DNA of 34,192 bases from a virus. Position numbers and translations under genes: made by a program. The DNA is taken from positions 1 to 34,192 of the IMG/VR virus record IMGVR_UViG_3300046167_000108; one strand, written 5' to 3'. The notes below the pieces were generated by a model. It worked only from the letters and a program-made list of their open reading frames with translations, made no database searches and was not told the origin of the DNA. This document shows positions 1-34,192 of the stretch, piece after piece. Position 1 is the first letter of the stretch. Every line of letters begins with the position of its first letter.

Positions 1-9
1 ACCCCTCAT
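1..9 (-). CDS. Start of the gene that crosses the window ends (if circular)
   Basis: Read on the minus strand, bases 9-1 are ATG AGG GGT. If base 1 is joined to base 34192, this continues in frame into the open reading frame at 34192-34019. The ATG overlaps the TGA stop of the 53-residue gene just upstream (ATGA), the usual junction in this operon, and a GAGG ribosome-binding motif lies four bases before it. The joined product would be 60 residues. The join is inferred, because the two pieces are not contiguous in the linear record. Confidence 0.6.
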
Positions 10-167
10 AAAACCTCACTCGTATGCTTGACAATTCTGTATCGTTTACCATTGTCACGCTTTGTTTGCACGTAGTACTTCGCTTCGCCTACGTCGTCCG
101 TTGTAAAGACCTGCGACCAAACATCGTCGTATAACTCAACCACATATGTTGTATTAACACCAATCAT
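6..167 (-). CDS. Small early protein, 53 aa, unknown function
   Basis: An ATG-to-TGA frame of 54 codons on the minus strand begins MIGVNTTYVVELYDD. An AGGAG Shine-Dalgarno sits six bases before the ATG, which makes this a well-supported small gene. The composition is that of a soluble mixed alpha/beta protein, with no membrane segment or recognised motif. It is preceded by the 92-residue gene in the leftward early operon. Its stop codon would overlap the start of the gene that crosses the window ends. The position, far from the virion genes and among tiny early genes, suggests a host-interaction or accessory role, but nothing in the sequence identifies a function. Confidence 0.7.
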   Translation of the reverse strand: MIGVNTTYVVELYDDVWSQVFTTDDVGEAKYYVQTKRDNGKRYRIVKHTSEVL

Positions 168-176
168 GTCTCACTC

Positions 177-455
177 CTAAATCATGTTCACATATTCATC
201 ATTGATAATTGTCTGCACATGGATGTACCCTTCAGGCCAGTACGTGTAAGACTCTTTAAGTGCCTTCGCTGTTCTATGTACCGCCGCCTCGAAGTGTTCA
301 AACATTCCTAGCTCTTCTTTGTAATACCAGAAGGGTATGCGTAACACTGGCTCCGCCGGTCCGTTGTATTCGTAGTACACGATTATCTCTGCGTCGTTAC
401 CAACGGGTCCATCGTTGCCAAACATCTTTGTGTGATCGTTCTCTGGTTGTTTCAT
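177..455 (-). CDS. Small early protein, 92 aa, unknown function
   Basis: The frame starts MKQPENDHTKMF and has an AGGAG motif six bases before the ATG. The product is acidic and rich in Tyr and Trp (YYEYNG, FWYYKEELG), with no membrane span and no family I recognise. Its TAG stop forms the beginning of the Shine-Dalgarno of the next small gene (TAGGAG), showing tight translational packing. It lies directly downstream of the sigma-region-4-like gene. I assign it as a real early gene on RBS quality and operon fit, not on homology. Confidence 0.72.
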   Translation of the reverse strand: MKQPENDHTKMFGNDGPVGNDAEIIVYYEYNGPAEPVLRIPFWYYKEELGMFEHFEAAVHRTAKALKESYTYWPEGYIHVQTIINDEYVNMI

Positions 456-458
456 GTC

Positions 459-632
459 TCACTCCTTTGCGTCTATGAAACGCTGTAGCTTTCCCATCTC
501 TTTAAGTTTCTTCAACGCGTCCCGCTCAATCTTCTGCACGGTTATGCGGTGCAGTCCTAACGCCTTCGCTACTTCCTCTTGCGTCATGTGATAATCTGCT
601 GGGCTGCCGTGGTACTTCCGTTTGTCTGTCAT
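459..632 (-). CDS. Sigma-70 region 4-like HTH protein, 57 aa
   Basis: The minus-strand frame encodes 57 residues. Residues 16-43 (MTQEEVAKALGLHR, then ITVQKIERDALKKL) follow the pattern of the sigma-70 region 4 helix-turn-helix, whose family consensus is roughly LTLEEVG..LGVTRERVRQIE..AL.KL. This is the domain that binds the -35 element. No region 2, 3 or 1 is present, so the protein is a stand-alone DNA-binding domain. The ATG follows the previous TAG stop immediately, with a GAGG motif just upstream. The role is inferred: it could compete with or modify host sigma factor or bind phage operators. A generic HTH regulator is the alternative. The HTH assignment is firm; the functional one is not. 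Confidence 0.7.
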   Translation of the reverse strand: MTDKRKYHGSPADYHMTQEEVAKALGLHRITVQKIERDALKKLKEMGKLQRFIDAKE

Positions 633-857
633 CTATGCCTCAAGTGTTGCCTGTCCTGTCACTTCGATATGTAACCACCCTATCCATGCAATGTAACTGG
701 CTCCGCTGTACTCGTCTGCTGGTACGTATGCCGTGGACAATCTAAAGGTACCAGTGAAGTACAAGTCGATCAAGTGTCTGTCCGTCTCGATAACGAGTCC
801 GTTATTCCCAAAGTCTGTCACGTATTTGTAGTACCGTTTAGCCGTTGTAATCTTCAT
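633..857 (-). CDS. Small early protein, 74 aa, unknown function
   Basis: This minus-strand frame begins MKITTAKRYYKYVTDFG and ends directly before the ATG of the HTH gene (TAG then ATG). A strong AAGGGAGG ribosome-binding site lies about eight bases before the start. The start overlaps the stop of the upstream membrane-protein gene by ATGA. The sequence looks like a small beta-rich soluble protein with several aromatic residues and no Cys pairs or transmembrane segment. I do not recognise a family. Translational coupling to both neighbours supports it as a genuine gene of the early operon. Confidence 0.72.
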   Translation of the reverse strand: MKITTAKRYYKYVTDFGNNGLVIETDRHLIDLYFTGTFRLSTAYVPADEYSGASYIAWIGWLHIEVTGQATLEA

Positions 858-1030
858 CGCATCAACCTCCCTTGTCTGTTTAATTCTTTCATGCGCTTTT
901 TGTAACGTGCGTTGCGCTTGCGTCGTCGTCGGTTGCGTGGGTCTGTCCAGCTCTCATAAGCCCAGCAAAGACCAGCCCAGACTGGCACAAAGCTAAACAA
1001 AATTGCAATGTCAAGTAGTGTTGGGTTCAT
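854..1030 (-). CDS. Small membrane protein with basic tail, 58 aa
   Basis: The minus-strand frame starts MNPTLLDIAILFSFVPVWAG. Residues 4-24 form one hydrophobic span, and residues 31-58 are strongly basic (NRRRRKRNARYKKRMK). A nearly perfect GGAGGAGGTGA Shine-Dalgarno stands about six bases upstream. Its start overlaps the stop of the upstream gene (ATGA), and its own stop overlaps the next start in the same way. A single-span inner-membrane protein with a cytoplasmic basic tail is the likely topology by the positive-inside rule. The function is unknown; an early membrane-anchored host-modifying protein is one possibility. Confidence 0.72.
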   Translation of the reverse strand: MNPTLLDIAILFSFVPVWAGLCWAYESWTDPRNRRRRKRNARYKKRMKELNRQGRLMR

Positions 1031-1323
1031 GCTGTCACCTCCTCCGCGTGTCGGTAATAAGCCTTCACAATGTCTTGGTATTGATAATCTTCACCGACCA
1101 AATCAAACACCCATTCACCGCCGTTGTGGTTTGTGCCTATCTCTTTTTCCCACTTGGTGATAACTTTCTCTGCCGCCCTCCAAGGGTTGCCGTAGTTGCA
1201 CCCATGATCAAACGGTGAAATTGCCGTTGTAGTTCCTCCTCGACTGTTAGCCATTATGGCCTTTAACCGCGCGCCTTTGGTGCTTGTTGCTGATAAGTAT
1301 TTCACTGTAATAAGTATAGCCAT
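1027..1323 (-). CDS. Small early protein, 98 aa, unknown function
   Basis: The frame begins MAILITVKYLSATSTKGARLKA and ends in EEVTA. The opening VKYLSATSTKGARLKA segment followed by a short strand (TTAISPF) and an NPWRAA...K motif resembles small phage proteins of unknown function in which a strand pairs with a helix. I cannot name the family with confidence. A GGAG motif lies about nine bases before the ATG. The stop overlaps the start of the membrane-protein gene by four bases. It has no signal peptide or membrane segment and probably acts in the cytoplasm early in infection. Confidence 0.7.
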   Translation of the reverse strand: MAILITVKYLSATSTKGARLKAIMANSRGGTTTAISPFDHGCNYGNPWRAAEKVITKWEKEIGTNHNGGEWVFDLVGEDYQYQDIVKAYYRHAEEVTA

Positions 1324-1352
1324 CGTCGTTTCTCCGTTGTTTGTGGAGCCGC

Positions 1353-1643
1353 TTACGCGGCTTTGTTTTTAGCTTTACGTTCTGCGCTTTGTTGCTCTGA
1401 TAGCCTACGCTGTGCCTTTCTTAGATCAATACCGATTGATTCAAGATCATCGCGCATCTCTGACATTCGCTCGTAAGCTTTATTGGCTTCGCTCATGTGC
1501 CACTCCGCATACTCAATATCTCGATCATCTAAAGCTACATCGCGCCTCTGAATATGATAATTCCAATCCCATGTCGCATCTTCCAGTATTACAATTTTGT
1601 CTGCTATCTGCCCCGCGAATACCTTACAAAGTGTGTTGCTCAT
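1353..1643 (-). CDS. Helical early protein, 96 aa; first gene of leftward operon
   Basis: The ATG at 1643 is chosen because GGAG sits six bases upstream. The frame can be extended 27 codons to a GTG at 1724, but no ribosome-binding site is found there. The product starts MSNTLCKVFAGQIADKIV. It is largely charged and helical, with coiled-coil character in its C-terminal half (EANKAYERMSEMRDDLESIG) and a Lys/Ala-rich tail. No known domain is seen. It is the first gene after the divergent regulatory region and should therefore be among the earliest transcribed. The function is unknown. Confidence 0.65.
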   Translation of the reverse strand: MSNTLCKVFAGQIADKIVILEDATWDWNYHIQRRDVALDDRDIEYAEWHMSEANKAYERMSEMRDDLESIGIDLRKAQRRLSEQQSAERKAKNKAA

Positions 1644-1747
1644 GTCTGTCTCCGTTTGTTTGTTAGACGCCAGAGATACTGCCAAGTATGTGCCAACAAT
1701 AAAAACACCAACAAAAACAAACACTTAATTATTAACGTGCCTGATCT

Positions 1748-1831
1748 GTTACCTACAAGCAGTGTTACTTTGTTACCGGATGTAACCGATTACGTTACCT
1801 AAAGTGTTACCAGTAACGTGGCGAGTGTTAC
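1748..1831. repeat. GTTAC repeat cluster (six direct, two inverted copies)
   Basis: GTTAC occurs on the plus strand at 1748, 1764, 1772, 1794, 1806 and 1827, and its complement GTAAC at 1782 and 1813. Most copies extend to TGTTACC or TGTTACCTA. Degenerate copies follow just downstream (TGTACCTAT near 1849 and GCTACCTA near 1861). Eight pentamer copies in 84 bases is far above chance. Spacings are irregular (8, 12, 16, 21 and 22 bases between direct copies). Binding-site arrays for a repressor, activator or origin-binding protein look like this. Low-complexity drift is the alternative. Confidence 0.75.
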
Positions 1832-1912
1832 CTATTGTGTGTCTATTGTGTACCTATGGTGCTACCTATAAGGACCCACATAGACTCTCACACCTCACCT
1901 TTGCAGATCTAC

Positions 1913-1956: not shown

Positions 1957-1971
1957 GGGGCGGGGGAGGGG
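1957..1971. other. G-run (three runs of 4, 5 and 4 G)
   Basis: The plus strand reads GGGGCGGGGGAGGGG inside an A/T-rich region. Only three long runs are present, so a canonical three-tetrad, four-run quadruplex is not satisfied. A two-tetrad or bulged form remains possible. It sits between the GTTAC cluster and the late promoter. Confidence 0.5.
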
Positions 1972-2151
1972 CTGTGTCTGTGTTAATTATATATGTACCC
2001 ACCTAGACACAAAAAAGAGTCAAATTAGACCCTAAAATAACCCCTAGTTATCTAACAAGAAACAATATATAAATCAATAACATGAGCGGTTCAGAATCTG
2101 GACCGTGCTGGTACAGTTTAAAGGACAATGTAGTCTTGTTAAAAATAATGC

Positions 2152-2180
2152 TTGACAAATCCCTAAAAGTATGGTACAAT
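2152..2180 (+). promoter_or_regulatory. Strong sigma-70 promoter for the late operon
   Basis: TTGACA (2152-2157), a 17-base spacer and TACAAT (2175-2180) match the bacterial sigma-70 consensus at 11 of 12 positions with ideal spacing. It faces the first structural gene at 2308, leaving a leader of roughly 120 bases that contains the two CTTTAAAG palindromes. Use by host RNA polymerase is inferred from the match and from the lack of a phage polymerase gene. Confidence 0.8.
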
Positions 2181-3401: not shown

Positions 3402-4651
3402 TGGATTTAAACATTGAGTTACTGCCTTGGCAGCAAGATGTTTGGGCAGACGACACAAGATTTAAAATAGTAGCTGCTGGACGACGTACGGGTAAGTCTA
3501 GGTTAGCTGCGTGGATGTTAATTGTTAACGCACTACAGGCGGACAGAGGCCATGTATTTTACGTCGCACCTACTCAGGGACAAGCCAGAGACATTATGTG
3601 GCAAACCCTGCTTGAGCTGGGCCACCCTGTCATTAGTGGTAGTCACATTAATAATCTGCAAATTAAGCTTGTCAACGGTGCTACCATTAGCCTCAAAGGT
3701 GCAGACAGACCAGAGACAATGCGAGGTGTCAGCCTTAAGTTTCTAGTCATGGACGAATACGCTGACATGAAGCCAGAGGTGTTCGAGCAAATCTTGAGAC
3801 CTGCTTTGGCGGATCAAAAGGGATGTGCGATGTTTATAGGAACACCTATGGGTCGCAACCACTTTTACGAATTATACAAGTATGCGGAGCTAGATGATGA
3901 CCCTACGTACAAGGCTTGGCATTTTACATCTTACGATAATCCTTTACTTGACCCGTCAGAAATTGATATTGCGAAGAGAAGTATGTCGAGCTATGCGTTC
4001 CGTCAAGAATTTATGGCGTCGTTTGAAGCTCGTGGGTCAGAAATGTTTAAAGAAGACTGGGTCTCTTTTAGCAATGACGAGCCTGAAATAGGAGATTATT
4101 ACATTGCTGTTGACTTGGCAGGCTTTGAAGAAGTTAACAAAAAGAAAACAAAAAGTTCTAAGCTTGACGACACAGCCATCGCCGTGGTTAAGGTCAGTGA
4201 GCATGGTTGGTATGTTGACAATATCATATACGGTAGATGGTCACTTGACGAAACAGCAGCTAAGATATTTCAGGCCGTTAGAGATTACCGTCCCGTGTCG
4301 GTTGGAATCGAAAGAGGTATTGCTAAACAGGCTGTAATGTCTCCTCTGGCAGACCTTATGAAACGTTATGGTACATTTTTTAGAGTAGAAGAGTTAACAC
4401 ACGGTAACAAGAAAAAGACTGACAGGGTAATGTGGGCATTACAAGGACGCTTTGAAAACGGTTACATTACATTAAACAAGGGCGAATGGAATAGTAGGTT
4501 TTTAGATCAGTTGTTTCAGTTCCCAGATCCTTTAACGCACGACGACTTGATAGACGCTTTAGCGTATATTGATCAATTGGCTAATGTAGCGTATGACTAC
4601 GACTACGAAATAGAAGACCATGAAATTTTAGACGTGGTAGCAGGATACTAA
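3401..4651 (+). CDS. terL: Terminase large subunit
   Basis: The DNA-packaging motor protein is 416 residues long, short compared with T7 gp19 but normal for many podoviruses. The N-terminal ATPase has Walker A AGRRTGKS at residues 26-33 and Walker B FLVMDE at 114-119, with a coupling SGS-like segment between. The C-terminal RNase H-like nuclease shows the expected acidic positions: AVDLAG, VGIERG and HDDLIDALAY. It should assemble on the portal, hydrolyse ATP to translocate DNA, and cut concatemers. It sits between a small putative virion gene and the portal, overlapping the former by one base. The assignment is secure. Confidence 0.95.
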   Translation: MDLNIELLPWQQDVWADDTRFKIVAAGRRTGKSRLAAWMLIVNALQADRGHVFYVAPTQGQARDIMWQTLLELGHPVISGSHINNLQIKLVNGATISLKGADRPETMRGVSLKFLVMDEYADMKPEVFEQILRPALADQKGCAMFIGTPMGRNHFYELYKYAELDDDPTYKAWHFTSYDNPLLDPSEIDIAKRSMSSYAFRQEFMASFEARGSEMFKEDWVSFSNDEPEIGDYYIAVDLAGFEEVNKKKTKSSKLDDTAIAVVKVSEHGWYVDNIIYGRWSLDETAAKIFQAVRDYRPVSVGIERGIAKQAVMSPLADLMKRYGTFFRVEELTHGNKKKTDRVMWALQGRFENGYITLNKGEWNSRFLDQLFQFPDPLTHDDLIDALAYIDQLANVAYDYDYEIEDHEILDVVAGY

Positions 4652-25385: not shown

Positions 25386-27258
25386 CTAAATCTCGCAGTT
25401 GTTACCCGTACAGGCTAACGTCTGTGACCCTTCAGTCATGTCAGAGTTTTCAGAGATGTTCCACTCAATAGTCTCTGGAAACTCTTCCTTCAACTTCTCA
25501 TAAGTCTCTAAGTCAATAGGCTCATAAGGTGCTTGTTGATAGGTATGCTCTGAGTAAGGCAAGAACGATATACCACTGATCTTGTCGAACTTGTTATACA
25601 ACCACTGACCTACCTCAAGAAACTCATCGTCACGATAGTAACAAGTCATTGACGGTTTGTGTTCACACCAGTAGTCCTGATAAATCTCCCATAGTTCTAA
25701 CTGTTCCATAGCACCCATCTCAGAGGCCACCTACAGCCCCATCAGGAGACTTTATAGGGAAGCTGAATACCTTGGTACTGGGTGACATTACATCGTCCTC
25801 TACAGGGATTCCTGCAGCTTCTAGGACTTGGCAGAGGGGGTCTCTTGAGTCTGCTCTAACTCGTCTAATGTATTGATCTGAGTATCTAGGGTGGATGCCA
25901 GAAGCAGAATCAACCAACTGACTAACAGTACCGGAAGGTTTAACAGCAGTGATGGCAGTGCTAATATTAATACCAAGCTTAGTAGCCCATTCCTTATTAG
26001 TGTTAATCGCTTCTTCCTTGAGGGTATTAAGCCACGTCTTAAGTTTCTCACGATCTTCTCTCCCTGACAACATGGGGTGATCCATGATGCCTGTCAAGCT
26101 AACGCCTAGTAACGCTTCCTCTTCAGTGTTCTTCTGCCATACCTTACGAAGGTAACGAAAGTCTGTCAAGGTAGCCTGTAAAGTTCCAAGGATAGCCGCA
26201 GTACGTACTTTTCGTTGCAAGTCTGAGAGCGTATCGGTTGCCCTGACAACAACTTCCGATAGATTGCAGAACTGGTTTGGTCGTAGGATAATCTCGCTAC
26301 ATGGATTAGTTCCAAAATCATAGGTAGCATCTCGTCGCTCGTTCTTTGCAGCTTGCTTTTGACTTGCGACTCTAGAGAACATACCTCGCTCTCCTGATCG
26401 GGACTCGTATAAACTTTTCCACTCATTTAGGAATGCCTCAAAGTCTGGCTTTTCAGTATAACATGCGCTGTTGTTGGCTAGTCCCCGTTGAGGATTATCC
26501 TGCCACCACTGGCCTGACTTGCATCGTCGGAGTCTATCGTCAGTGAGGTTAGACAGACTGATGAGAGCGGACCTGCGTACACCGCCGACGACGACGATCT
26601 GTGCAATCTTACAGCACAAATCATGACATTCGATGGAGCTAAGTTTACGTCCAGCAGCCTCCCGAAAGACGCTGACTGTGAAGTTGAACAGATCGACAAG
26701 AGGCTCTGGACCAGATGCTCTACCTCCGAAGGTCTTAAGGGTTGCCCCTGCAGGTCGTACTCCAGACACGTCCCATTTTGGAAGTTGGCCTGAATAGAGC
26801 AAGCTAACAAGTTCCCTGTAAGCTTTAGCCCATCCAATTTTGCTGTCGGCGACGTGTATAACTGAATCGGTATCATGAAATTCCTCCGCTACTTCTGGTA
26901 GTTTAGATACGTATTGTCGTTCAACAGAGTAGCCTACGCCTGTACCGCACATAAGTACGTACATCATCTCATCGAACGCTTTAGGGTGGTCAATAGGTAA
27001 GTAGCTACAGTTAAAGCCAGCTACGTTGTCACGGTCAAGAGCGTCACCAGCGGTCATCAACGCTCTCATGCTAGGCATAACACCCATGTCATGAATGTCT
27101 GCAAAGATACCGTTAGCTTGTTCTAGTGTTAGCTTACCCTTCTCAATCCAGAAGTTTAAGTAACGGTCAATTGTTTCTTCCCAAGTCTCACGGCGCTGCT
27201 CCTCTGGTAGGTAACGTGCGTAGCGTGACTTGTGAATGTATTGTTGATATGCGTCCAT
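25386..27258 (-). CDS. nrdJ: Adenosylcobalamin-dependent (class II) ribonucleotide reductase, frame-split
   Basis: The large part (27258-25720, 512 residues) has the class II monomeric RTPR core. Cys84 (GFNCSYLPID) matches one redox Cys, and NPCSEI gives Asn318, Cys320 (thiyl radical) and Glu322. Cys331 (FCNL) is 11 residues later, the same spacing as C408-C419 in Lactobacillus leichmannii enzyme. The frame closes at TGA after SPDGAVGGL. The remaining 114 residues (25730-25386, EQLELWEIYQDYWCEH onward) carry the C-terminal shuttle pair C-x4-C in CTGNNC. Deleting one G in GGTGGC joins both, giving about 623 residues. It makes dNTPs from ribonucleotides using vitamin B12 coenzyme. Confidence 0.88.
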
Positions 27259-27500
27259 TAAGATTGCACCTCTCTGTCTAACAGTAATTGAATGTAGTGC
27301 ATGGCTTTACGTAGATCCTCGACACCGTTCTTGTCACGCCATCGGGTTATGTACTTTACTACGTTAGCCTCACACCAATCAAGGTTATTGTCAATAATAA
27401 AATCGATAGGTTGAATGTTATAACGTGCGTAATGGTGTCCGCCCACTTGTCTTTTGCGGGCATCGTCCCACTGTTTAGGTGTTGCATTGTCAATACTCAT
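27258..27500 (-). CDS. DUF3310-type small protein (SaV-like)
   Basis: The 80-residue product has HHYARYNIQPIDFIIDNN and CEANVVKYITRWRDKNGVED, then LRKAMHYIQLLLD. That is the standard DUF3310 pattern, found in phages of many hosts and sometimes annotated as a nucleotide-kinase-like or nucleotide-metabolism protein without proof. The start overlaps the metallophosphoesterase stop (ATGA) and its stop overlaps the RNR start (TAATG). Placement beside RNR agrees with a nucleotide-related role, but this is association only. Confidence 0.85.
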   Translation of the reverse strand: MSIDNATPKQWDDARKRQVGGHHYARYNIQPIDFIIDNNLDWCEANVVKYITRWRDKNGVEDLRKAMHYIQLLLDREVQS

Positions 27501-28261
27501 CCATACTTCCTTTTAAGATAACTCATGCTAATAGGTAGCTCATCAAAGGAACCGTTGTCTACCTCGTTTAGCATCCATATTCCAGACCAGCTACCGTTCG
27601 TTTGAGGGTTTAAGTAGCCTTCACTGTGGTTGTAATATATACCAGCAAACAATCCAGTGATGTTACTACCGTCTGCCTTACGTGCGTAGGCTATGTCTCT
27701 GTCTTGGACGTGTCCCATGATGCACGACATGAACTTCTTTTGCAACATGAGTTTTGCACAGGTGACTGGTCTGCCCATGACTCCGCTCGTGAAGTAGTGA
27801 CAGTACGCGATGCCATCGATGATGATTGGTTGTAGAAAAGGGACAACCTCCCATCCTGCCTCTTCCAATAAGAAATGATCATAGCTCATAAGTCCTTCTA
27901 GTTTCGGATCAGATTCAATAGCACGTTCGATCCGCTGTTCGTGGTTACCTAACAAGAATACCATCCGTGGTGTCCATGTCTTCTTCTTGTTACTACGCAA
28001 GCGTTCCTTCTCTGCTTCGATAGGCGCTAGGAAATGCTCCATAGCGTTCTGTCCTGCTCGTATGTCTCGTGTGTACCGCCGTCCTTCAAAGGACTTTTTA
28101 CCTACGTCATAGCTACTGAGACTTTCCATGTCCCAGTGATCCCCCAGATGAATGATAACGTCAGGCTTTGTTGCGGCTGCATACTTACCAGCCCAGTACA
28201 AATGATCAACACTGTTACCGGGCTTGACTTGCGTATCAGGTATTACTAGGTGTCTCGTCAT
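27497..28261 (-). CDS. Calcineurin-like metallophosphoesterase
   Basis: The 254-residue protein shows metallophosphoesterase motifs in order: IPDTQ near the start, HLGDHWD, LLGNHEQR, CHYFTSG and MGHVQD, which supply the usual Asp, Asn and His metal ligands. Such enzymes hydrolyse phosphomonoesters or diesters using two metal ions. In phages, substrates are rarely known, with nucleic-acid ends or nucleotides as candidates. It is embedded in the replication operon and overlaps both neighbours by four bases. No signal peptide is seen, so it is cytoplasmic. The family is secure; the substrate is unknown. Confidence 0.88.
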   Translation of the reverse strand: MTRHLVIPDTQVKPGNSVDHLYWAGKYAAATKPDVIIHLGDHWDMESLSSYDVGKKSFEGRRYTRDIRAGQNAMEHFLAPIEAEKERLRSNKKKTWTPRMVFLLGNHEQRIERAIESDPKLEGLMSYDHFLLEEAGWEVVPFLQPIIIDGIAYCHYFTSGVMGRPVTCAKLMLQKKFMSCIMGHVQDRDIAYARKADGSNITGLFAGIYYNHSEGYLNPQTNGSWSGIWMLNEVDNGSFDELPISMSYLKRKYG

Positions 28262-28665
28262 TGCTTTTTACTCCATCCGACAGGACAGGTTTCTGGTGTG
28301 TACCATGCGAAACCTTGCTTCTCTGCCCATTCTTGCATGGTGTATCGTGTCCCGTCAGCTCTACGTCTTGCTCCGGGCATTGCAGTTCTTGGGTTCTGGA
28401 AGACAAAGACCAGCTCCTCCTTCTCCCCAAGGCTGCTGTTAATGTCAACATATTTCCTCGCCTCTGCGCGGTCACGGAACCTCCCTTTAGCTTCAATATA
28501 TATAGTAGAATGTGTACTGTAATATACAAAGTCAGGCTCGTACGTCTTGACTTGGGTATATGTTAACTTACCAACATGGTACTCGCATCGTCTGAACTTC
28601 TGGTGAAGGTCATACTCGAACCAGCTATCGTACCCTTTAGGTATGTTACGCTTCGTTCTCTTCAC
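28258..28665 (-). CDS. Endonuclease I-like Holliday junction resolvase (T7 gp3 type)
   Basis: I choose GTG at 28665 (MKRTKRNIPKGYDSWFEYDL), preceded by GGGAAAG, over the longer open frame whose first residues lie deep inside the exonuclease gene. This gives 135 residues (T7 gp3 has 149). The PD-(D/E)XK core is visible: YEPDFVY then IYIEAKGRF, with an earlier Glu in WFEYDL. Such enzymes cleave branched DNA and host DNA, aiding concatemer resolution and nucleotide recycling. It overlaps the exonuclease by 20 bases and the phosphoesterase by four. Confidence 0.85.
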   Translation of the reverse strand: MKRTKRNIPKGYDSWFEYDLHQKFRRCEYHVGKLTYTQVKTYEPDFVYYSTHSTIYIEAKGRFRDRAEARKYVDINSSLGEKEELVFVFQNPRTAMPGARRRADGTRYTMQEWAEKQGFAWYTPETCPVGWSKKQ

Positions 28666-29338
28666 TTGGTCTTTCCCATATTTGATTAGGTTCACGACGT
28701 AGCCAGAGCAGCCTAGCGTTCTCGATGACACGCTCTTCTGTCTCCAACAACTCAACGCACTTGTTGAACATCTCTATCTCTGACAAACCTTCAAGGATCT
28801 TCTGAGACTTTTTCTCACCGATGCCGTGTACACCCATGATGTTATCAGCTCTATCGCCCATGATGATCTGACGATAAAAGAATAACAGTCCTTCCTCTTC
28901 AGTAACAGAAGACAGTTCACGCTTGTTGAAGTTGTAATGTCTGCACGGTACTTGTTTAAAGTCCTTATCAAGACTGACGATGATGCTGTCAGGGATGGTG
29001 GTAGCGTCGATAGCAATCAAGTCATCAGCTTCCTCATCTTCTGATACAACAGCTTTCCAGTCTTCGATCAGGTACTTACGTATAGCTTCAAGGTGTGCAG
29101 GTTTTTCTACGTCCTTACGGTTACCTTTGTAAGGCGCAGTCACAGCCACGTCGTTACGAAAGTTACCCTTGCCTGTCAGGTAGACACGGTAGTCTGGTTC
29201 GCCGTCTATCATGGTGTATAGATCGCTTACCAGATCAGACAAGAAACTGCCCGTAGTATAACAGGCAGTCTTGACTGACTCATCGTCGCACTTGAATGCA
29301 CAACGATAAGCCACAATGTCACCGTCAATCAGGATCAC
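28646..29338 (-). CDS. 5'-3' exonuclease / flap endonuclease (T7 gp6 type)
   Basis: The 230-residue protein has the FEN/PIN-type acidic motifs: ILIDGDIVAYRCAF at the N-terminus, DEEADDLIA in the middle, SLDKDFKQVP, then the helix-hairpin-helix GDRADNIMGVHGIGEKKS. It would remove primers and flaps and degrade host DNA from 5' ends in concert with endonuclease I encoded next. Shorter than T7 gp6 (300) but all catalytic acids appear present. The ATG overlaps the SSB stop (ATGA). Confidence 0.9.
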   Translation of the reverse strand: MILIDGDIVAYRCAFKCDDESVKTACYTTGSFLSDLVSDLYTMIDGEPDYRVYLTGKGNFRNDVAVTAPYKGNRKDVEKPAHLEAIRKYLIEDWKAVVSEDEEADDLIAIDATTIPDSIIVSLDKDFKQVPCRHYNFNKRELSSVTEEEGLLFFYRQIIMGDRADNIMGVHGIGEKKSQKILEGLSEIEMFNKCVELLETEERVIENARLLWLRREPNQIWERPSEENEA

Positions 29339-29739
29339 AACGCTTCCGCTTCAGAGACTGAGTTGTCAGCGTATTCGATCAGGTTAGTAACCTTCATCTT
29401 GATCATGGATGGTGAACGTCCTGTACCAACAGACCAGTCATAGTATCCTACAACAGCAATGGCTTCAGATCCGTTAGCGATAAGAACATCTTCAGGAATC
29501 TCAACACCGTTCTCATCTGTTAGACGCATAGGGTTGTTGCTCTTCATGGTGATAAAGAAGCCACGGTCATCACCCTTGTTGCTAGGTGCAATACCCATCT
29601 CTTCGATGGCCTCAACAGCTTTATCACTGAGGTTACCAAGCTGAACTTGATACTTGTTACTGTACTTGTTGAGCTTGTTACGCTCGCACCAGTAGACGGT
29701 ACCGCGTACAGTGATGGGTGGTAGTTTGTTTGCAGACAT
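29335..29739 (-). CDS. Single-stranded DNA-binding protein (T7 gp2.5-like)
   Basis: The 134-residue protein has an OB-fold-like sequence (ITVRGTVYWCERNKLNKYSN, YQVQLGNLSDKAVEAIEEMG) and later VVGYYDWSVGTGRSPSMIKM, as in gp2.5-type SSBs of marine podoviruses. The C-terminus is acidic (ADNSVSEAEAL) and so fits the tail that contacts polymerase and helicase. It has a strong AAGGAG ribosome site, which overlaps the polymerase stop codon when the polymerase reading frame is restored. It would coat single strands during leading/lagging-strand synthesis. Confidence 0.8.
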   Translation of the reverse strand: MSANKLPPITVRGTVYWCERNKLNKYSNKYQVQLGNLSDKAVEAIEEMGIAPSNKGDDRGFFITMKSNNPMRLTDENGVEIPEDVLIANGSEAIAVVGYYDWSVGTGRSPSMIKMKVTNLIEYADNSVSEAEAL

Positions 29740-29749
29740 AAGTTTCTCC

Positions 29750-31391
29750 TTAATGTGTCTCTGCCCAATTGTTACCTACTCTATACTCGCCGTCTAAGGG
29801 ACACCGTAGGCTTAGTGTCTCACCGGCGATTCTGATTGCACGTACACCCTATACGTCCGACTGTGTCAGCGTAGTGGGCAGGTGTTTCTATCTGCCATTC
29901 ATCGTGTACGTTTGCTACAAATCTATGTGGTATATACAGCAACTTAGCATTCAACAGTGTCAAAGCTTCTTTCATAACGATAGCTCCAGCACCTTGAAGT
30001 AGCGTGTTTAATGCGGCGTGTTCTGATCTGACTCTGAGCTTTCGTCCGTCGAGTCCAGTAAGGACGCCTGATGCAGCCTGTCCGTGAGTATCTCTTCTAA
30101 CTCTTTCAAGAGACGGCGTGTTAGAAAGAAATGTTTCTTTAAGTCTGCGTCCAGTAACGCTATTTCCTCCAACGATAGCTCCGATCTTAGCATCTCCGGC
30201 TCCATACAGAAACGCATAAATGAATGTTTTCGCAAGAGGGCGGCTCTCAAGTCCAGCTGCTCGTTGATTAGCCGTATGAATATCGCCATTGAGTATTTCA
30301 TTAGTATAGTCTTCGTCATCCATGTAGTGAGCCAACATACGTAGCTCTAGTCCGCTGGCATCTATACCAACCAACTTGTTACCTTCATCCACTGTCCAAC
30401 ATGAGCGGCACTCAGTACCGAACGGTGCAGATACTGCCGGTACTTGTGCCATGTTAGGTGATAGGTGTGTCATGCGTCCTGTCACTGCTCCGTTGGTAAT
30501 GACTCTGCCATGTACTCTACCATCGTCCTTGACAGCTTTCAACCATGAATCTATCTGAGCTACTCTCTTCTGCAACATCATGTAACGTGCAACAGCTTTA
30601 GCTTCAGGAAGATCTATACTGTCCAACACCTTCTCGTCAACGATGATGTTACCCTTCTCAGTCTTCTTAGTAAACGTAACACCAAGACCTTGCAGTCGCT
30701 CTGCTATCTGCTTGCGTGATCCGGGATTGAACACAGTCACCTTGTCCTTCAGTCGCTTACCTGTCTTCTCAGAGATACGCTCTTCAACGATGGGCGGGAA
30801 GATAGCTTGTAACTCTGCTTCGATGTTGTTCATCTCAAACATAAGATCCATCATCAACTTCTCAGCGAATGGTGTGTCAAGCTTGAAACCGTTGCGTTCC
30901 TGCTCAGTTATGATCCAGCCTATGCGATGCTCAAGATCAATACATTTCTCAGAAAAGCCCTCTTTAAATAGCTGCATATCCAACCACTTGTGTACACGCT
31001 CAGTTAGTTCAACGTCAGCGATACAGTACTCGATCATCTCGTCTGTTAGTCCACCGTCGTAGTCTGTAAAGTCGAGCTTGCCTGTTCCTCCAAGGATTGT
31101 TCCCCAGTTACGCAGTGAATGTCCACCTTCTTGGCTTGGATTGTAGAGTCTGGAGAGGTATAAAGTATCCACAACAAGATGCCTAGGAATGCGTACGTCC
31201 CAAACACTATCGAGAACACGACAATCAAATCCAATGAGATTATGTCCGATAACTTGTTCCGCATCATGCAACACCTTCTTCAAAGACTCTGGTGTCGTAT
31301 GTACTTGGGTGCTGTTCTTCACCTTCGTAACGGCACACCAGATCGTTGAGTGATCCAAGCTTGTTTCTATGTCCAAGTAGCATGTATTCAT
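29750..31391 (-). CDS. Family A DNA polymerase with 3'-5' exonuclease, frame-broken near C-terminus
   Basis: The main frame (31391-29820, 523 residues) has the exonuclease acids (YLDIETS with Asp7/Glu9; IGHNLIGFDCRVLD; YCIADVELT) and polymerase motifs A (GIDASGLELRMLA), B (RPLAKTFIYAFLYGAG) and C (NVHDEWQIE, Asp497). It then ends early at RIGCTCNQNRR. The normal C-terminus continues in the next frame: VRAIRIAGETLSLRCPLDGE and NNWAETH, with TAA at 29750. Changing GGG (29849-29847) to GG gives IGVRAIRIAGE and a 546-residue enzyme, T7-like though shorter than the 704 of T7. It replicates the phage genome with the primase-helicase and SSB. Confidence 0.92.
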
Positions 31392-31494
31392 TGTATCGCT
31401 CGTTCAATTCGTTACGTTCAGGCTCATGGTTAAACTTCTGGTAAGTCTCCATCAACTGTTCCTGTTCCAATATCCAAGTCCCAATCTTGCTCAT
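31264..31494 (-). CDS. Small ORF overlapping the polymerase start, 76 aa
   Basis: The frame begins MSKIGTWILEQEQLMETYQK and overlaps the zinc-protein gene by 65 bases and the polymerase start by 128. Its first 34 residues occupy the only non-coding stretch before the polymerase and look protein-like (acidic and helical). Small proteins beginning MS(K/R)IG occur before polymerases in related phages, as I recall. The long overlap makes the second half doubtful. It is either a real short gene or a chance frame. Confidence 0.4.
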   Translation of the reverse strand: MSKIGTWILEQEQLMETYQKFNHEPERNELNERYNEYMLLGHRNKLGSLNDLVCRYEGEEQHPSTYDTRVFEEGVA

Positions 31495-31672
31495 GGTGTA
31501 TCATCTCCTCTATGTCTGCGAGTGTTCGTAGATCAGCACGGTCAATCACATCTCCGTCATCTAAACTAACAGCGAAGCATCTGTTGCACAAGTCTACAAA
31601 CTCTTGGCTAACAGCGAATCGTCTTGTAGCTTCGTAGTCTGTCAGCTCTACGTCACACGCTATACATCTCAT
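31430..31672 (-). CDS. Small zinc-finger-like protein, 80 aa
   Basis: The N-terminus MRCIACDVELTDYEATRRFA gives C3 and C6 (CxxC), and LCNRCF gives C29 and C32, a four-Cys zinc-binding arrangement common in small phage proteins of this region. The remainder is acidic (DDGDVIDRADLRTLADIEEM). The ATG overlaps the preceding stop by four bases. The role is unknown; nucleic-acid or protein binding is plausible. It is conserved in position near the polymerase in many marine podoviruses. Confidence 0.75.
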   Translation of the reverse strand: MRCIACDVELTDYEATRRFAVSQEFVDLCNRCFAVSLDDGDVIDRADLRTLADIEEMIHHEQDWDLDIGTGTVDGDLPEV

Positions 31673-32172
31673 TCAATAAGTTCCTCTACCGGCGTCAGCT
31701 TGTACTGATCTAAAAAGTAGGCTGGTTTGTTTCTACCAAAAGGATCGCCCCAGTTTTCCTCTTGCACTATCTCATCGTAAGTAGCATAACCTACTACACT
31801 ATATTCAGGAAAGCTACCCACCACTAACAAATACAAATCACACTGGCTGTTGTTCTTGTGAGGCATGATAATAAGTCTGCCTGTTCTGTACTTGGTTGTC
31901 TTCACATCGACAGTCTTACCTTTACATATCAAGTCATGTGCCGGTAGTTCGCTTGCTTGAAAGTCTGTCTCAATATCGTAGTACACGTTGAGTATCTTTG
32001 CTGCTGCCATCTCAGAGCCAACGCCATCAACATCAACATCTTTATATGACTTAGTGAATAAAGTGTCAGACAGTTTGTTGTTAAAGCCTTTCTCTCTAGC
32101 ATTCTCGTAACGCATACGAGCGATAGACTCACAAACTTTCTGCTCATTCTTACCTAGCTTATAAGACAGCAC
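31669..32172 (-). CDS. Putative PD-(D/E)XK nuclease-fold protein, 167 aa
   Basis: GTG at 32172 is preferred because AGGAG lies seven bases upstream; an in-frame GTG at 32187 has no such site. The sequence has a Glu in GSEMAAAKIL and the pair AHDLICKGKTVDVKTTKYRT, consistent with the E...D-X(n)-(D/E)XK core (here DLI...DVK) of this nuclease fold. Phages use such proteins as recombination or restriction-type nucleases. It overlaps the primase-helicase stop by 14 bases. The catalytic assignment is by pattern only and moderately confident. Confidence 0.65.
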   Translation of the reverse strand: MLSYKLGKNEQKVCESIARMRYENAREKGFNNKLSDTLFTKSYKDVDVDGVGSEMAAAKILNVYYDIETDFQASELPAHDLICKGKTVDVKTTKYRTGRLIIMPHKNNSQCDLYLLVVGSFPEYSVVGYATYDEIVQEENWGDPFGRNKPAYFLDQYKLTPVEELIE

Positions 32173-33778
32173 TGTCCTTCTCCTCACGCTGTGTTAATCG
32201 TCCAGTTGCCTCGTTGTAGAATACCTCACACGCCTTGCCTGTCTTACCCGTGTACCTGTTCTTCAACACACGCAGCACGGTCGTGTTTCTGACAACGGCG
32301 TCGTCACTCTGGCTGTTACGCTCCGCACCAATGACCGCATCAGAGAGCTGTGCAATCGACGCAGAGCCACGTAACATACCAAGGCTAGTGACAGCACCGT
32401 CCTCCAACTGCTTCCCTTCAGGGCGTCGTAGGTGGCTCACAAGGAACATACAAATCCCCATCTCCTGTACGAACGTACGTAGCTTAGTCATGATCATGTC
32501 CAAGGCACGTCGTTCATCACCGTTGCTCTGGTCAGACACCAAGATAGAGACGTGATCGAGTACGATATAACGTACGCCTAGTACCTTGACGAAGTATCTC
32601 ATACGGCCCAGTACGTTTTCTATCTCGTTACTACCGAAGTGTTCCCACAGATAGACACGGTTCTCATAGTCCATCGTATCGTACACAAGGTCAATGTCTT
32701 GGTCGTCGTACTCACAGTCAGGTAGGTGGATAGGCTTGTTCAGTTCAAGACCGACAAGCCCACGCATGGTACGCTCAGGCGTCTCCTCAAGGAACATCAA
32801 CCCAAGGTTGTCCTCAGACTGCGCCATAATGGAACTGACAATCTCACGTAGCAGTGTAGACTTACCTAGCCCAGAGCCTGCACAGATCGTCACCAGCTCC
32901 GCCGTGCGTATACCGTAAAGGTGTTTGTTCAGTCCCTCGAATGGGTACTGTACCTCTGCCTTGGTGAGTGGCTTCTTAATCAAATCACGTAGCTCACCAG
33001 CACCAACAATACCTTCAGGTGTGTAAGGCTGGGCAGACCAGAACACTTTGGTGTACATCTCCGCCTGATTGTTAACAAGATAATCACACGCATCCTTGTA
33101 GCCGTTGACGTGCTTAACAATCCTCGCCTTGTTACCGAACAGATCAGCACACTCCTTCGCTGCCTTCTGTCCCGGCTCGTCAGCATCGAAACAAATAACA
33201 ATGTTCTCGAAGCTGTTCAGCCAATCATAAAAAAGGCGACAGTCCTTTGCCGCCGACGTTGCACCGTTACGGACACTGACAACGGGATACTTACTACCTG
33301 TCATTTGGTGAGCCGCTAACGCATCATACTCACCTTCAACGATAGTCACATACTTACCACCTTCAGGGAACAAGTGTTGGCCATACATTCCTGCGTTCTT
33401 CCAATCTCCAACGATACTGAACCGCTTGTCAGGGTTACGAACCTTAGCAGCTATCGGCTTTGTTGGATCGTCAGGGTTGTAGTAACCGAATGTTGTAACT
33501 TCACCTTGCTTGAGTGCTGCGTACTTCTTCGCCGTCGTTCCTGTAATGAGACGGTCAGTAATCGTACGGTACTCCGCTGTGATTAACCGATGTTCTGTCT
33601 GACTGAACGATGGCTTTGGCGCATCGCTGATAGATCCTAGCTCTCTCACGTTATCCTTCGTTGCGGCTTTGGTGTACTTGCTACAGTTAAAACAATAACT
33701 AGAGCCGTCCTCGTTGTACGATAACGCATCACTGCTACCGCAATCTGAACACGGTTGGTGCGTCTCAGTGAATGCCAT
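32159..33778 (-). CDS. Primase-helicase (T7 gp4-like)
   Basis: The ATG at 33778 is chosen over an upstream in-frame codon at 33814 because AGGA stands just before it and because the zinc ribbon then begins at residue 10. Cys10, 13, 29 and 32 bind zinc for template recognition. TOPRIM motifs follow (VTIVEGEYDALAA, VICFDADEPGQKA). The C-terminal RecA-type helicase has Walker A AGSGLGKST and Walker B YIVLDHVS. The 539-residue protein (T7: 566) unwinds DNA and makes primers at the fork. It is the first large gene of the leftward operon after the short genes. The assignment is secure. Confidence 0.95.
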   Translation of the reverse strand: MAFTETHQPCSDCGSSDALSYNEDGSSYCFNCSKYTKAATKDNVRELGSISDAPKPSFSQTEHRLITAEYRTITDRLITGTTAKKYAALKQGEVTTFGYYNPDDPTKPIAAKVRNPDKRFSIVGDWKNAGMYGQHLFPEGGKYVTIVEGEYDALAAHQMTGSKYPVVSVRNGATSAAKDCRLFYDWLNSFENIVICFDADEPGQKAAKECADLFGNKARIVKHVNGYKDACDYLVNNQAEMYTKVFWSAQPYTPEGIVGAGELRDLIKKPLTKAEVQYPFEGLNKHLYGIRTAELVTICAGSGLGKSTLLREIVSSIMAQSEDNLGLMFLEETPERTMRGLVGLELNKPIHLPDCEYDDQDIDLVYDTMDYENRVYLWEHFGSNEIENVLGRMRYFVKVLGVRYIVLDHVSILVSDQSNGDERRALDMIMTKLRTFVQEMGICMFLVSHLRRPEGKQLEDGAVTSLGMLRGSASIAQLSDAVIGAERNSQSDDAVVRNTTVLRVLKNRYTGKTGKACEVFYNEATGRLTQREEKDSAVL

Positions 33779-33947
33779 AACGTCCTGCCCCCATGTCAGT
33801 GTAAAGCTCGTCAACTTCTTCGTCGTCCATTGCTTCTAACAAGTCAGTAAAGAAACCACCTGCGATGTTCATAGCTTCAATGAGCGTCAACGTCTCAAGC
33901 TGTCGTTCAACAAGCTCACTTACTTTCTGTTCTTTAGAGATACTCAT
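33765..33947 (-). CDS. Small acidic protein, 60 aa
   Basis: The sequence begins MSISKEQKVSELVERQLETL with helices, includes AMNIAGGFFTDLLEAMDDEE and overlaps the primase-helicase by 14 bases. It has a weak TAAGG site about nine bases before the ATG. It is acidic and helical, with no motif I can name. Similar short proteins precede primase genes in related marine phages. A modulatory role for primase-helicase or host factors is only conjecture. Confidence 0.65.
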   Translation of the reverse strand: MSISKEQKVSELVERQLETLTLIEAMNIAGGFFTDLLEAMDDEEVDELYTDMGAGRYGIH

Positions 33948-34004
33948 AGGTTAAATACCTTATAAGATAATATTTTTAAATTAAACTTTTCTGCTTCTGT
34001 ATAG

Positions 34005-34035
34005 ATTATAAACACAGCTCACAGTTCTTCGTCAA
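34005..34035 (-). promoter_or_regulatory. Candidate secondary leftward promoter before primase block
   Basis: On the minus strand TTGACG (34035-34030), a 19-base spacer and TATAAT (34010-34005) precede the 60-residue gene and primase-helicase. The -10 is perfect but the spacer is long, and the -35 lies in the last codons of the preceding gene. The gap 33948-34018 is A/T-rich, so the match may be chance. Confidence 0.35.
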
Positions 34036-34192
34036 CAATGTGTTCAATAATTTTATCGTAGACGTGTTGATCAATCATCTCAACCAGCTCAACTCCGTGC
34101 CACTTGACAGAGTCGAGGACGATCAAACCATCCTCGCTGGTAAACTCTACGGTAATGTCAACCAGTATTTCTACGTCAAATAGATTACATTC
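34019..34192 (-). CDS. Gene cut by the right edge, 57 aa visible (60 if joined to base 1)
   Basis: From base 34192 the minus strand is open for 57 codons (ECNLFDVEILVDITVEFTSE onward) to TGA at 34019. There is no start codon at its beginning, so it enters from outside the window. Joining to bases 9-1 adds Met-Arg-Gly and creates a complete 60-residue protein. It is acidic, with alternating hydrophobic residues at the start and helices at the end (IIEHIVDEEL). No family is recognised. It belongs to the same leftward early operon. Confidence 0.72.
   Translation of the reverse strand, partial: ECNLFDVEILVDITVEFTSEDGLIVLDSVKWHGVELVEMIDQHVYDKIIEHIVDEEL

Follow-up and report, generated by a model that had tools for sequence, protein, structure and literature searches.

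What is the function of the dense cluster of GTTAC repeats in the divergent control region of this phage genome, and which protein binds it? The sequence analysed (the window) is a stretch of 34,192 nucleotides from an uncultivated marine phage (IMG/VR record IMGVR_UViG_3300046167_000108). Terminase, portal and capsid genes lie on the plus strand from 2308, and a sigma-70-like promoter, TTGACA-17-TACAAT (2152..2180, plus strand), precedes this rightward structural unit. The minus strand encodes small genes, a primase-helicase, DNA polymerase A, an exonuclease and a B12-type ribonucleotide reductase. The promoter-proximal part of this leftward unit, with the small genes and a 57-aa helix-turn-helix (HTH) protein, occupies 1..1724, and replication genes resume on the same strand at 25386-34192. 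In the relative G001/L360, a self-overlapping contig with a unit of about 35.5 kb, the minus-strand block is unbroken for ~10.7 kb, beginning at the promoter slot and taking in the helicase, polymerase, exonuclease and reductase genes. The array stands at the head of the leftward replication unit. The first gene of this operon (1353..1646, minus strand) encodes a 97-aa protein of no known family; five homologues were found and the array is present with all five. Phage isolates yielded no DNA match to the window and no protein at 60% identity or more, and close matches in a bacterial genome search came solely from mixed-phylum MAG bins.

The repeat array and its putative binding partner

The first-pass annotation reported six GTTAC and two GTAAC copies in 84 bases, and this count is exact: within 1748..1831, GTTAC starts at 1748, 1764, 1772, 1794, 1806 and 1827 and GTAAC at 1782 and 1813 on the plus strand. 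It had seen no rival cluster, and indeed this is the densest stretch of the pentamer across the whole window. The array also exceeds a shuffled background, as 200 dinucleotide shuffles gave a maximum of 4 pentamers per 84 bases against the 8 observed; the one other 5-mer to reach 8 copies per 90 bases is GCAGC, which does so in coding DNA. The proposed degenerate continuation to about 1870 stood only in part. Repeats are present there, but they are TACCTA/GTGTACC-like with a period of ~11 bp and are not GTTAC sites, and they are not kept in every array-bearing relative (L271). The functional extent runs the opposite way from 1870, from the array to ~1670 on the minus strand. Read on that strand, the sites lie at R135, F121, R114, R102, F90, R80, R72 and R56 (F, forward; R, reverse; bp from the sigma-54 site described below).

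That the divergent control region holds a regulatory array, and that a regulator probably binds it, is supported, while two of the roles originally suggested for it fared poorly. One was an iteron-like replication origin, a reading that a repeat array in a divergent intergenic region would suit and that might draw on the tandem DnaA-box-like units in the neighbouring slot of some relatives. However, the starts are spaced at 16, 8, 10, 12, 12, 7 and 14 bp and two of the eight pentamers are inverted, an irregular and mixed arrangement rather than direct repeats in regular helical phase. The relative L014, at 94% identity, also lacks the array, which is accounted for by the promoter layout set out below, and we regard an origin as most improbable. 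The other suggestion was that the array is the operator of the 57-aa protein (459-632, minus strand). This protein matches Pfam Sigma70_r4 (E 9e-8) and HTH_3 and shares the operon, but two relatives without the array retain its gene region, at 94% (L014) and 81% (L006) nucleotide identity, and such a partnership is scarcely plausible. Its resemblance to sigma-70 factors is confined to region 4, and it could possibly be a transcription modulator. The best candidate for the binder of the array would be a host protein rather than a phage one.

A predicted sigma-54 promoter and IHF site in an exchangeable slot

The leftward side of the array holds the elements of an enhancer-dependent promoter. 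The sigma-54 -24/-12 element TTGGCACATACTTGGCA (GG-N10-GC; 1680..1696, minus strand) is the best match to this promoter class in the 34-kb window when both strands are scanned, and it predicts a transcription start near 1669 on the minus strand. Between this element and the array lies an IHF-consensus site, AAACAAACACTTA (1715..1727, plus strand), which matches 8 of the 9 specified positions and has an offset of -31. By this anatomy, the array is most likely the upstream activating sequence (UAS) of a leftward sigma-54 promoter. A search for a sigma-54 activator domain found none in the window, a record that may be incomplete; hence, the activator would be the host's.

Conservation in relatives had been proposed as a check on the array. 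An exact-motif check in 80 terminase relatives was initially negative because that set had been ordered by identity of the large terminase; when the small terminase gene served as the criterion, an array appeared in 17 relatives, several of which are near-duplicates, such that the independent lineages are fewer than 17. The equivalent sigma-54 site ranks first in 16 of these 17 loci and second in the remaining one. A sigma-54 site of at least 10/13 was found in the slot of all 18 array loci (the 17 relatives and the window) versus none of 44 relatives without the array. The IHF consensus has an identical offset in all 18 loci, which form two subtypes of differing sequence; the match is 8/9 in subtype 1 and 9/9 in subtype 2, whose four free bases vary. 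Across seven aligned subtype-1 promoters, the register and orientation of the array are constant, with few single-site losses or gains. Pentamer columns in this alignment are variable at 2 of 35 positions versus 41 of 84 other columns (permutation p about 5e-5), and the IHF positions and the GG/GC of the -24/-12 element are likewise among the most conserved columns.

The relative L014 is 94% identical to the window on both flanks yet has another promoter slot and other first genes, indicating that the slot is exchangeable. Comparison with relatives places one border of the slot at the conserved block TAGACTCTCACACC (1881..1894). In three array-less relatives (L260, L263 and L285), this slot contains LexA/SOS-like boxes at about -500 to -540 relative to the small terminase gene, and such boxes also occur in the slot of L212, L247, L262, L269, L270 and others. 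These boxes score 14-18 of 20 consensus positions, against 13 or fewer elsewhere in those loci. In this respect the slot resembles an interchangeable cassette keyed to host stress regulators.

Other features of this region also vary among relatives. The leader of the subtype 2 promoters (L220, L278, L282 and L283) holds an GGTAACATGTTACC palindrome. A second hypervariable slot, seen in L006 (about 3460-3560), L034, L063, L220 and L275, lies between TAGACTCTCACACC and a G-rich block (window 1957-1971) and contains tandem 11- or 22-bp units that are lineage-specific: CTGTGGATAAC (DnaA-box-like), AATGAGAATCATT (Fur-box-like) and TTGCATTCTGC. The G-rich block and an CAGACACAAAAAAGAGTC block (window 1957-2046), upstream of the small terminase gene, are kept in distant relatives and may form a packaging or terminator element. 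Three contigs, L034 (record G001), L281 and L246, begin at one and the same CCAACCYAGACTC junction, give or take 1-2 bases. This junction may be a physical genome end or a cassette boundary, and strain mixing at a cassette boundary would explain the shared starts equally well.

Resemblance to CbrB targets and crcZ promoters

CbrB of Pseudomonas is a regulator responsive to carbon limitation that binds non-palindromic TGTTAC/GTAACA subsites and depends on sigma-54, with assistance from IHF (PMC6296734). Its target rule is TGTTAC-N12-14-GTAACA-N15-19-GTAACA (PMC8871633). The array contains a triple of this type, CGTTAC-N14-GTAACG-N16-GTAACA (F1-R1-R2; 1771..1818, minus strand), which matches 16 of 18 positions, with a single mismatch each in F1 (C for T) and R1 (G for A). 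A triple at 16/18 or better was found only once in the 34 kb, both strands considered. The rule is matched at 18/18 in L275, L276, L282 and L287 and at 17-18/18 in most relatives having the triple; F1 lies about 121-122 bp from the sigma-54 site in the window and 122 bp from it in those four.

Host promoters were located with a CbrB query from a true CrcZ locus, and the order was taken as GTDB Pseudomonadales from its CrcZ-bearing member. Of 321 genomes, a single one gave a hit to CrcZ RNA itself above the cut-off. The CbrB DNA-binding domain was present in 219 of 244 genomes of the order so taken and in 23 of 299 phylum-wide, 22 of which were already in the order or class samples. In 29 Pseudomonadales genomes, a sigma-54 promoter with GTTAC sites lies downstream of cbrB, with site positions peaking at F122, R102 and R80. 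The corresponding subsites of the window are F121, R102 and R80, and the forward/reverse/reverse order is common to both. An IHF match of at least 8/9 occurs at -31, the offset seen in the window, in 16 of the 29 host promoters. When arrays were slid over the host profile, the window and four subtype-1 relatives scored best in their true register (rank 1 of 202), and for L275 and L282 the true register came second. The occurrence of the CbrB domain and of crcZ-type GTTAC/IHF/sigma-54 promoters across the order (bacterial loci L312-L359) differs from the literature, where CbrAB is described as exclusive to pseudomonads (PMC6296734, PMC8871633).

Based on motif content, positions, conservation, geometry and the match to host promoters, all of which were observed directly, we consider it highly probable that the array is the UAS of a sigma-54 (RpoN) promoter for the leftward replication and nucleotide operon and is bound by host CbrB or by a protein that shares its DNA-binding domain. 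From the same features we infer CbrB binding, sigma-54 transcription and activation, a Pseudomonadales host and induction by carbon limitation. It is also possible, if unlikely, that the same sigma-54/IHF/UAS promoter answers to a different host enhancer-binding protein that uses GTTAC half-sites, or to CbrB acting jointly with NtrC. Subtype 2 relatives (L220, L278, L282 and L283) carry NtrC-like sites, TGCACTAATTTGGTGCA and GCACCAAAATGGTGC, upstream of the leftward genes, and the subtype 2a relatives L220, L248, L266 and L283 depart from the F122/R102/R80 geometry of crcZ (ranks 31-66 of 202). In the window, however, the half-site, orientation and distances fit CbrB targets specifically, and no NtrC-like site was noticed in its sequence. 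A further reading is suggested by the number of sites, since known CbrB promoters carry 3-4 sites versus eight here, more than every host promoter examined. Such an array could act as a decoy that titrates host CbrB and disturbs catabolite control, with promoter activity secondary. Yet the sigma-54 core, the IHF site and the fixed distances, none of which a decoy would require, belong to the best-conserved columns of the alignment, and we think this role highly unlikely.

The architecture of array, sigma-54 site and IHF site that led us to favour a CbrB-type enhancer promoter occurs in other, partly unrelated phages. A blind scan of the viral collection for three TGTTACC copies was dominated by chance arrays, and a sigma-54 site was used as the filter. 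What remained were further phages in which an array accompanies a strong sigma-54 match (12/13 for most), in some cases together with IHF at -31 or -32 (L111, L119, L120, L154 and L188); the terminase of L120 belongs to another family. Scanning for the CbrB triple gave 116 loci, of which 8 had a sigma-54 site scoring 10/13 or more nearby and 108 had none of that quality; for a permuted control pattern the figure was 0 of 69. In seven of these eight, IHF matches at 8/9 or better at -30 to -32. Four of them belong to relatives included in the counts above, while L406 and L412 come from distant phages.

Proposed mechanism and known systems

Sigma-54 promoters are silent unless an enhancer-binding protein is activated. 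Replication genes placed behind one would therefore make lytic growth depend on the nutrient state of the host. In the mechanism that we propose, the GTTAC half-sites would be occupied by CbrB or a protein sharing its DNA-binding domain, IHF would bend the DNA between array and promoter, and the AAA+ activator would open sigma-54 polymerase at 1680-1696, such that a host carbon-limitation response, borrowed by the phage, would set the replication genes. More broadly, we think it somewhat likely that an abundant marine phage group and several unrelated phages have put their replication operon behind a copy of a crcZ-type enhancer promoter. Host carbon or nitrogen status would then set the tempo of infection through CbrB (NtrC in some relatives), with the slot as a cassette swappable among CbrB, NtrC and LexA. 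If correct, this proposal would link carbon limitation to infection in uncultivated marine phages in a directly testable way, would predict a Pseudomonadales host with CbrB and would account for the differing array motifs that near-identical phages carry in this intergenic slot.

Three known systems offer comparisons. In LexA/SOS-controlled phage promoters, a host stress regulator is likewise read by a phage promoter, and in close relatives of this phage the slot is occupied by LexA-like boxes; however, those promoters act by release of a repressor, whereas the promoter described here would be an activator-driven sigma-54 promoter. A search of the open-access literature found no report of a phage early promoter driven by sigma-54 or CbrB. 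Some cyanophage genes, one of them for a DNA polymerase, are under the control of host PhoB; predicted Pho boxes in phages are unreliable absent binding tests (PMC10976474). As far as can be judged from the citation of Zeng and Chisholm (2012) in that paper, host PhoBR control of cyanophage genes likewise ties phage transcription to a nutrient two-component system of the host. On that account, PhoB boxes serve auxiliary and some replication genes, whereas here a putative sigma-54 enhancer heads the replication operon, and the regulator, nutrient and hosts differ. The crcZ and crcY promoters of Pseudomonas (PMC6296734, PMC8871633) share with the window the forward/reverse/reverse TGTTAC/GTAACA subsites, their distances to the -24/-12 element, the intervening IHF site and the GG-N10-GC element itself. 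They differ in that the crcZ and crcY promoters carry three or four sites and drive a small RNA, whereas the phage promoter carries eight and would drive protein-coding replication genes.
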